Source of the DNA: Opitutales bacterium
Lineage (GTDB): Bacteria > Verrucomicrobiota > Verrucomicrobiia > Opitutales > UBA953
Assembly: GCA_024697185.1 (NCBI GenBank)
Contig: JAILGB010000030.1
Span: forward strand, 1 to 45,247
Reading direction: 5' to 3'
Length of the DNA: 45,247 nucleotides
Both the position numbers and the translations under genes were made by a program. A model generated the notes under the pieces. That model was not told the DNA's origin. It worked only from the letters and a program-made list of their open reading frames with translations, and did no database searches. Positions 27,308-31,926 of this stretch are shown here, one piece after another (position 1 is the first letter of the stretch; the number at the start of each line of letters is the position of its first letter).

Positions 27308-27336
27308 AGTTTAAATAAAAAAAAGCGTTCCCGCGA
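27308..27336 (-). promoter_or_regulatory. Possible purB promoter overlapping a terminator
   Basis: On the minus strand, TCGCGG (27331-27336), 17 nt, TAAACT (27308-27313), then 10 nt to the ATG. Both boxes are weak, but the layout and the position of the repeat copy are the same as in the hisS, ribE and rpe promoters. Confidence 0.35.
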
Positions 27337-27356
27337 GAATATTCCCTCGGGAACGC
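27317..27356 (-). terminator. Terminator after the tandem paralogue genes
   Basis: On the minus strand, GCGTTCCCGAGG and CTCGCGGGAACGC form a stem followed by a run of eight T. Both arms are repeat copies in opposite orientation. Confidence 0.85.
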
Positions 27357-27376: not shown

Positions 27377-28096
27377 CTATTCCTTCGCCGGCGCTTCTTC
27401 GGCGGGCTTCGCCTGCTGCGCCTTGAGGAACTCTTCCTCGTTGACAGCCGTGTAGAGCTTGGACTCGACGACTTGGAGGAGATAGTTACGGGTGAGCGAG
27501 AAACCGTATTTTTCAGTCATCGTCTTGTTGTCCGCTTCGAGACGCTGGGTCGCGGTCTTGATTTCCTCCTCGAGCTTGCTCTTGGCTTCGCCGTCCTGCA
27601 TTTGGGCTAACGCGGCATTCATCTGCACCAGACGGTCGCGTTGCGCCTGCACGATTTGGACATTGTGGCGGAAAAGATCATTTTCAACAGCACCGGGGAT
27701 TTTGGCGATCAAACGGAATTTGTCGTTAGCGCGCACCAAAAACTGGTCTGCGGGAACGCCCTCTTCCTTCGCCTTGTTGTATTCTTCGTCCGTCAACTTG
27801 ATAAAAACTTGCGAATTGACGATCTGGTGCACATAGTTTCTCGCGAGCGAAAAACCGTAGGACTGTGTCATCTGCGCATTGTTTTTGTTAAGTGCGGCCT
27901 CGCGATCCTTGATCGCTCCCGCCATCAGTTCTTTTTCCTTGGGGGAAAGGATCTGCGAGAGAGCGACGAGCGCTTGGCGCTGACGCTGGACAAGCTGGAC
28001 ATTTTGCATAAACTGCTCGTTGGCCGCAGCCGTCGAGATCGTTGACACATGAATGAATTTTTGTCCGTTCTGTTCGATGTAATCTAAATCTGCCAT
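27377..28096 (-). CDS. Unknown protein with two internal helical repeats, no signal peptide, 239 aa
   Basis: No family recognised. The protein consists of two copies of a helical unit of about 85-90 residues. Each unit has FxxNVQxxQxxRxxLV, a Glu/Lys-rich helix, a KNN or DNKTM turn, YGFSLxRNY, and an ending like LTDEEYNKA or VNEEEFLKA. It is a close paralogue of the gene directly upstream, but it lacks that protein's signal peptide and starts at the shared IEQNGQKFIHVSTIS segment. It is therefore predicted to stay in the cytoplasm. The tail is Ala/Glu/Pro-rich. The gap to the upstream paralogue is 25 nt, and a strong terminator follows. Confidence 0.85.
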   Translation of the reverse strand: MADLDYIEQNGQKFIHVSTISTAAANEQFMQNVQLVQRQRQALVALSQILSPKEKELMAGAIKDREAALNKNNAQMTQSYGFSLARNYVHQIVNSQVFIKLTDEEYNKAKEEGVPADQFLVRANDKFRLIAKIPGAVENDLFRHNVQIVQAQRDRLVQMNAALAQMQDGEAKSKLEEEIKTATQRLEADNKTMTEKYGFSLTRNYLLQVVESKLYTAVNEEEFLKAQQAKPAEEAPAKE

Positions 28097-28121
28097 TTTG
28101 ATTTATATATTGGTTTTTTTC

Positions 28122-28991
28122 TTAGATTTGAGACTCCGCGTCCGTTTTTTCGGATTTTTCGGCGGCTTCCAAACGCGCCTGAGCTTCTGCCTTCAAATAT
28201 TCTTCTTCGTTGACTTTCATGAAGAGCTTGATTTTTTCAACCTGCATCATGTAGTTGCGGGTGAGCGAAAAACCGTAGTGCTTGATCATTTCGTCATTGT
28301 TCTTCTTAAGAGTTTCCTCTTCATTTTTGAACTGCTCTTCAAGCTTGGTTTTTTCTTCGCCGTCCTCCATTTGCGCGATGACGTTATTCATTTGAATCAG
28401 ACGCTCGCGACCGTTTTGCATGATCTGCACATTGCGACGGAACAAATCGTTTTCCTCCGCAGTCGGGATTGTCGCGACCAATTGATATTTGTCGTCGCCC
28501 TTGACTTCAAAAACCGGTTTTTCACCGTCTTTTTTATTTTCAGCCTCTTCGCGCGCTTTCTTGTATTCTTCGTCGCTGAGTTTGAGGAAAATCTTAGTGG
28601 AAACGATCTGCTGCACATAGTCGCGAGTGATGTTAAAGCCGTAGGCCTTTGTCATCGCCTCATTGTTTTTGGCAAACGCTTCCGTGCGGTTTTTGATAGA
28701 GTCCTTCAACAACTCTTTTTCCTCCGGCGAAAGAATCCGGTCGAGTTCGACCAACGCCTGACGCTGCGCGCCCAAAATCTGCACATTCTTCATAAACTCC
28801 TCACAAGCGCTAACCTGCGAGATCGTCGAAATATGAATATATTTCTGACCATTTTGTTCGATTGTCTCGAACGCATCCGTTTTCGCGGGCGCGGGAGCTG
28901 CGGTCGTCGCTGCCGGCTCATCGGCCGCATTTGCGAAAGTTACCGCGGGAAGCATTGCTGCAAGAGCAAGGAGGGTATTTTTAAGTTTCAT
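28122..28991 (-). CDS. Secreted unknown protein with two internal helical repeats, 289 aa
   Basis: No family recognised. A signal peptide (residues 1-22, ANA-A) and a short Ala/Pro/Thr linker precede IEQNGQKYIHISTIS. Two copies of the same helical unit as in the downstream paralogue follow (about residues 65-155 and 180-270), with the conserved YGFNITRDY and YGFSLTRNY. Predicted helices are rich in Glu and Lys and look coiled-coil-like. Export suggests an envelope or periplasmic role. It has a good promoter and leads the two-gene unit. It contains no copy of the CGGGAACG repeat. Confidence 0.85.
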   Translation of the reverse strand: MKLKNTLLALAAMLPAVTFANAADEPAATTAAPAPAKTDAFETIEQNGQKYIHISTISQVSACEEFMKNVQILGAQRQALVELDRILSPEEKELLKDSIKNRTEAFAKNNEAMTKAYGFNITRDYVQQIVSTKIFLKLSDEEYKKAREEAENKKDGEKPVFEVKGDDKYQLVATIPTAEENDLFRRNVQIMQNGRERLIQMNNVIAQMEDGEEKTKLEEQFKNEEETLKKNNDEMIKHYGFSLTRNYMMQVEKIKLFMKVNEEEYLKAEAQARLEAAEKSEKTDAESQI

Positions 28992-29017: not shown

Positions 29018-29046
29018 ATAATAAGATTTATACGTTTGCTTTTCAA
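29018..29046 (-). promoter_or_regulatory. Promoter of the tandem paralogue operon
   Basis: On the minus strand, TTGAAA (29041-29046), 17 nt, TATTAT (29018-29023). The -10 box ends 26 nt before the start codon, so this transcript should have a short leader. Confidence 0.7.
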
Positions 29047-31554: not shown

Positions 31555-31926
31555 TGGTGGAGATGGCGGGAGTTGAACCCGCGTCTTTTTGCCTTTCAGC
31601 AATAACCGCTACATGCTTAGTCGCAAATTTGATTTCGCGCGCAAATGTCGTTGCAACACGGCATTTGTTTGCTATCGGCGTTTTCAGGTTTTGGCTCGTG
31701 CTAACGCGGACAAAATCGAGGTTGCCTACTTTTGAACCAGCCCCGGCGCTCAGTAGGTGTCGGCGTCGGTGACTGACTGCTTACAACTTAAGCAGCAACA
31801 GCGAGCGCAGGGCGCTCGAAGTTGATAGAGTTGCCATTTAACCGGCGATACGTGATTAAAGAGGTAAGTGTCATCCTCTGCATGCTGTCACGGCCTATTT
31901 GCAAAAATCGAATCCGGAACATCCCC
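31555..31926 (-). ncRNA. ssrA: Transfer-messenger RNA (tmRNA)
   Basis: tmRNA rescues stalled ribosomes and tags the nascent peptide. The 5' end (GGGGATGTTCCGGATTCGA, minus strand from 31926) and the 3' end (a T-arm with GGGTTCAACTCCC, then CATCTCCACCA, with CCA encoded) are the conserved tRNA-like halves. The mature length is about 372 nt in one piece, not permuted. The tag reading frame is at 31788-31835; read from a GGC resume codon it gives GNSINFERPALAVAA and then TAA. The exact resume codon is inferred. It has its own promoter and terminator. Confidence 0.95.
31788..31835 (-). other. tmRNA proteolysis-tag reading frame
   Basis: The frame GGC...GCTGCT-TAA encodes a 15-residue tag ending ALAVAA, the hydrophobic end expected of an SsrA degron. 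The stop codon is certain; the first codon is inferred. Confidence 0.8.

Follow-up and report, generated by a model that had tools for sequence, protein, structure and literature searches.

The window, that is, the whole stretch of 45,247 nucleotides of Opitutales DNA analysed here, contains two adjacent genes on the minus strand, called A and B below, between a ruvB-DUF486 gene pair and purB. The features of the locus, in the order of transcription, are the following.

29018-29046, minus strand: promoter-like site TTGAAA-N17-TATTAT (10 of 12 matches; the number of such sites is not above chance)
28122-28991, minus strand: gene A, exported two-unit protein of 289 amino acids (open reading frame and signal peptide in the sequence)
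28926-28991, minus strand: signal peptide of A, residues 1-22, MKLKNTLLALAAMLPAVTFANA (sequence features and hydrophobicity screen)
28869-28925, minus strand: linker of A, residues 23-41, rich in alanine and proline and without methionine
28500-28862, minus strand: A, unit 1
28182-28499, minus strand: A, unit 2
28097-28121, minus strand: gap of 25 bp between the stop of A and the start of B
27377-28096, minus strand: gene B, two-unit protein of 239 amino acids without a signal peptide, predicted to be cytoplasmic (open reading frame)
27731-28078, minus strand: B, unit 1
27413-27730, minus strand: B, unit 2
27317-27356, minus strand: intrinsic terminator, with the hairpin at 27325-27356 and the U8 tract at 27317-27324

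The first-pass annotation described tandem paralogues here, and both reading frames are indeed present. Its observation that only the upstream copy has a signal peptide and a linker also holds. The signal peptide of A, as read from the sequence, has a basic N-terminal start, a hydrophobic core and the cleavage site A-N-A, and is followed by a linker of about 20 residues, whereas B begins at the shared domain. A missed upstream start that would give B a signal peptide, named in the annotation as its refutation, is ruled out, since the frame of B is closed by an in-frame stop three codons before the ATG and has no alternative start. The cytoplasmic location of B is predicted from the absent signal peptide alone. 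The terminator behind B is as strong as had been claimed (-23.1 kcal/mol, z-score -3.37, U8 after the hairpin), and none of 200 shuffled sequences was equally good. The strong promoter is unsupported: the consensus match lies 27 bp ahead of the ATG of A, in a region where three such sites were found against 1.3 expected, that is, near chance. Further upstream, the window contains a tmRNA gene (31555-31926) with the tag GNSINFERPALAVAA.

Each protein contains two copies of a unit, as had been noted, and the unit length is about 110 rather than 85-90 residues. Units 1 and 2 of the same protein are 36-38% identical, with alignment scores of 200 in A and 176 in B, where shuffled sequences reached 61-63 at most, and a family-wide profile comparison of the two units gives a probability of 99.8%. 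Corresponding units of the two proteins are closer: the first units have a score of 339 and about 60% identity, the second units a score of 328 and 54% identity. The conserved motif of the unit, present in one or two copies per protein, consists of a helix F..NV...Q(R) and a helix-strand segment N..M.K.YGFSL.RNY, and single-unit and double-unit relatives align across the full unit length. In the unit tree of the window's bacterial family (f1), unit 2 forms its own group (support 100/99), and the first units of separate genes resemble one another more than they resemble the second units; thus the doubling of the unit preceded the doubling of the gene in f1. The claim of four related units in two compartments is therefore retained, the compartments being predicted ones.

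The AlphaFold2 model of B, run with seven alignment rows, has pLDDT 89.4 and pTM 0.75. In this model each unit starts with a strand (9-10 residues), continues with a pair of helices of about 27 residues and ends with a second strand, 14 residues long, and a short helix; the two-unit protein has four long strands in all. Thus the unit is predicted to be alpha/beta and not purely helical, as had been assumed. When unit 2 is modelled alone, the hairpin is kept at pLDDT 91 and the strands are gone. Since the strands vanish in the single-unit model, the two units probably share one sheet that is formed between them, and the two-unit protein probably works as a dimer within one chain, equivalent to two copies of the single-unit proteins of other Opitutales.

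Scans of A, B and their relatives with Pfam and NCBIfam gave no described family, OmpH (PF03938) included, and a sequence search of PDB gave no relative (best E-value 0.15). Weak matches to Nas2_N, CASP_C, RpoD, Syntaxin and HlyD occur in single members; they are of the coiled-coil type and inconsistent across the family, and were rejected. A literature search found nothing on this protein family. The absence of a known family match thus agrees with the first-pass annotation, but the pair is no local oddity, as the family is widespread (see below). Judged by sequence, A and B belong to a new family of Verrucomicrobiota repeat proteins built from units of about 110 amino acids.

The order of elements in the unit, strand - helical hairpin - strand, is shared with Skp, a trimer that binds outer-membrane proteins, and prompted a comparison with the Skp/OmpH family. 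Foldseek searches of PDB with the whole protein and with one unit gave no match with E-value below 0.001. In VIA-align searches of PDB, Skp was at the top both times (Z 7.2 and 6.9; Z 9.4 and 9.1), with the match covering the hairpin only; however, Z below 13 may be meaningless for helical pieces, hairpin matches are common, and the scores of unrelated hairpins lie within 0.5 of that of Skp. Comparison by hhalign with the OmpH proteins that these genomes encode gave scores equal to those of reversed OmpH. Thus homology to Skp/OmpH is ruled out at the level of sequence profiles and membership in that family is unsupported; a relationship in fold may exist, and a mode of action like that of Skp is no more than a lead. 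The genome of the window has a separate true OmpH gene elsewhere. The resemblance is that of a small exported protein with a strand, a long helical hairpin and a strand, whose hairpin has Skp as its top solved structure. However, A and B have two fused units, a shorter hairpin and no profile relationship to OmpH, and of the two only A has a signal peptide, B being a predicted cytoplasmic copy. The Spy/CpxP/ZraP (LTXXQ) proteins are likewise small exported hairpin proteins of the periplasm, and the ZraP structure 3lay occurs low in the VIA-align list (Z 7.6). Unlike them, A and B have beta strands, another conserved motif and no Pfam match, and LTxxQ is not among the conserved columns of the A/B family.

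In whole-genome searches the protein was found in all 36 near-complete genomes of f1, in 75 of 273 sampled Opitutales and in a few other Verrucomicrobiota. It is thus no orphan but a core gene of f1 and a member of a wider Verrucomicrobiota family. By its named relatives the window falls within the gut Opitutales, close to Candidatus Spyradosoma. Relatives outside f1 have one or two units and are nearly all secreted, some of them as lipoproteins. Secreted proteins with one unit, about 140-190 residues long, occur in the bacterial families f2, f5, f14, f21 and f52, double-unit secreted proteins in f17 and f95, and weak double-unit matches in f57 and f87. In f5 there is a tandem pair of single-unit genes, seen at L104 (4652-5741) and at L105 (2569-3729), in which the upstream gene encodes a Sec signal peptide and its partner a lipoprotein signal (LGSC/LSSC); here, too, paired units carry unlike addresses. 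Two genomes of f14 have copies that lack a signal peptide and combine a full unit with a shortened second one (L117, 5029-5622; L118, 5073-5666; L119, 4307-4894), and G188 carries two unlinked copies.

The pairing was surveyed at 37 loci from f1 genomes. In four of the five genera (g1, to which the window belongs, g2, g4 and g5) a gene with a signal peptide is followed by a gene lacking one, and the latter is downstream in every pair. A signal peptide is present in every one of the 27 A copies, and the 28 B copies lack any start that would yield one. In the phylogenetic tree, A and B are grouped by lineage and not by type: placing all A copies in one clade costs 121 log-likelihood units (p = 2e-5). 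The same test within g1 alone does not reject such a clade (p = 0.31), and in g2 and g5 the two copies are strongly diverged. A deletion of four residues in the hairpin of unit 1 is present in A and B of the window and in B of G006, and absent from A of G006 and from both copies of G001. Since this derived deletion is shared with B and not with A of G006, it suggests that in the lineage of the window the B sequence was copied into A by gene conversion, which would have spared the N-terminal difference. The first-pass annotation regarded the gene pair as a duplication. The paralogy stands (A and B are 55-56% identical), but one simple duplication does not account for the pair, because of the sorting by lineage and the shared deletion. 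The clustering by lineage is therefore read as repeated origin or homogenisation, with the difference in address kept; either three independent duplications or a single one combined with conversion could account for it.

In five genomes of g1 and one of g3 there is a single gene at the site, encoding a signal peptide and a linker with a methionine. In these single-gene species, which include G003, G004, G005, G007 and G009, the linker methionine is followed by serine or threonine, at the position where the B proteins begin. No methionine past the signal-peptide region was found in the 27 linkers of A proteins; one A has a methionine at the cleavage site. The linker ATG has the best start-context score of the internal ATGs of its gene and falls in the 87-90th percentile of internal ATGs, yet in g1 only in the 13-16th percentile of true starts. 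The classifier was built on 31 starts in G003 (AUC 0.94) and 14 starts in G009 (AUC 0.75); its result is suggestive of a working start at the linker ATG and no proof of one. The Shine-Dalgarno test is uninformative in g1, because true starts are no richer in such sites than internal ATGs (0.16 versus 0.17). In G002, an otherwise single-gene species, there is a second gene on contig 158 (L139, 4293-5645) with a lipoprotein-like signal LCGC, a linker with an internal methionine and a C-terminus that ends before the usual TEEEF motif.

The linker methionine may serve as a start, or it may be left over from an event that fused the signal of A to B. One possible, though doubtful, reading is that of a dual-address gene with an exported form and a cytoplasmic form from the internal start, repeatedly split by tandem duplication into genes with and without a signal peptide. 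Dual-compartment gene pairs and dual-start genes are known mainly from organelle targeting in eukaryotes (e.g. PMC12718117). The likeness is in the address-bearing and address-less forms, here with single-gene relatives that have an internal start candidate. The difference is that A and B are bacterial, that the choice is between Sec export and the cytoplasm, that the arrangement recurs within one bacterial family, and that dual initiation is a candidate.

In genera g2-g5 the gene or gene pair is located behind an APH-type kinase gene and a gene for a CvpA-like membrane protein (25 loci, gaps of 49-131 bp), and this includes the single-gene genus g3. In g1 the linkage is lost, and CvpA (PF02674) was not found in two of the eight g1 genomes, that of the window among them; six of its seven g1 relatives have a weak or clear match. 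Neighbourhoods are not conserved between bacterial families, and neighbour clustering and inspection found no CvpA-type neighbour in other families. Large or giant secreted beta-repeat genes adjoin the gene in f2-g70, f5, two f14 genomes and f95; the giant neighbours in G209 and G066 encode 2938 and 3905 amino acids, and in the 5.4-Mb genome of G209 all eight Calx-beta matches fall in a single gene, 22 bp from the unit gene. This adjacency was noticed post hoc, against a background of up to 5%; in three such genomes, 6 of 254 genes were next to an ORF of at least 1200 amino acids. It does not hold in f1, f17, f21, f11, f52 and most of f2. In these distant lineages, the single- or double-unit genes at L106 (5460-5921), L104 (4652-5741), L113 (4241-4759), L117 (5029-5622) and L207 (1848-2645) adjoin giant secreted Calx-beta, cadherin, InlB-repeat or PATR genes.

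We tentatively regard A and B as a single kind of two-unit protein in an exported and a cytoplasmic form, which would work in both compartments as a holdase or scaffold with hairpin arms, although this is itself well short of probable. Two hairpin arms on the shared sheet would bind a partner via a conserved face near the hairpin base (in B: F29, N32, Q39, R40, N73, M76, Y80-G81-F82, R86, Y88 and their unit 2 counterparts). The clients would most likely be envelope or secreted proteins, attended by B before export and by A after it. This reading draws on the presence of the gene in all 36 near-complete f1 genomes and the constant order in four genera; on the strands of the two-unit model (pLDDT 89), lost in the lone unit; on the secretion of nearly all outside relatives and the hairpin-only match that places Skp at the head of the VIA-align list; and on the giant beta-repeat neighbours in distant lineages and the CvpA-type linkage at 25 loci. 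Against it, hairpin matches are common, with unrelated hairpins within 0.5 of Skp, no Foldseek match reaches E-value below 0.001, and the OmpH profile does no better than its reverse in a genome that has its own OmpH. In addition, neighbourhoods differ between families, the genus of the window lacks the CvpA linkage, the giant-gene adjacency is post hoc with a background of up to 5%, and the place of B in the cytoplasm follows solely from its missing signal peptide.

Because units pair with units, cytoplasmic B could instead be dedicated to A, binding it ahead of export as a pilot or brake and not serving other clients. The adjacency of the genes with the signal-less partner always downstream, the strands appearing only when two units are present, and the similarity of A and B kept in g1 by conversion or re-duplication are consistent with this. 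However, G003, G004, G005, G007 and G009 manage without a separate B, most single-unit relatives have no cytoplasmic partner, and A and B are strongly diverged in g2 and g5, so that we consider a dedicated partner rather unlikely. We hold it to be equally unlikely that A outside and B inside form one membrane complex, an envelope scaffold, with the CvpA-like protein. Such a complex would fit the close upstream position of the CvpA-like gene at the 25 loci of g2-g5, single-gene g3 included, but the linkage is lost in g1, CvpA was not found in two of eight g1 genomes including that of the window, and no such neighbour was seen in other bacterial families. Finally, A and B might be redundant duplicates, similar through gene conversion or a need for dosage, the loss of the signal peptide in B being a near-neutral accident. 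The deletion shared by both window copies with B but not A of G006, and the clustering by lineage, are in line with this. It is nevertheless improbable, as the same order and the same split recur in every pair of four genera, the gene is kept in 36 of 36 genomes, and B is conserved across species, which argues for selection on both addresses.

The pairing of exported and internal versions of one protein suggests that one and the same function is exercised on either side of the inner membrane. Being undescribed and yet present throughout a family of gut bacteria, the protein family is well worth structural and functional study. The repeated pairing of exported and internal forms beside single-gene species constitutes a natural experiment that bears on the ways in which a bacterial protein can acquire a second compartment, the routes being two starts in one gene, duplication, or conversion that spares the address.
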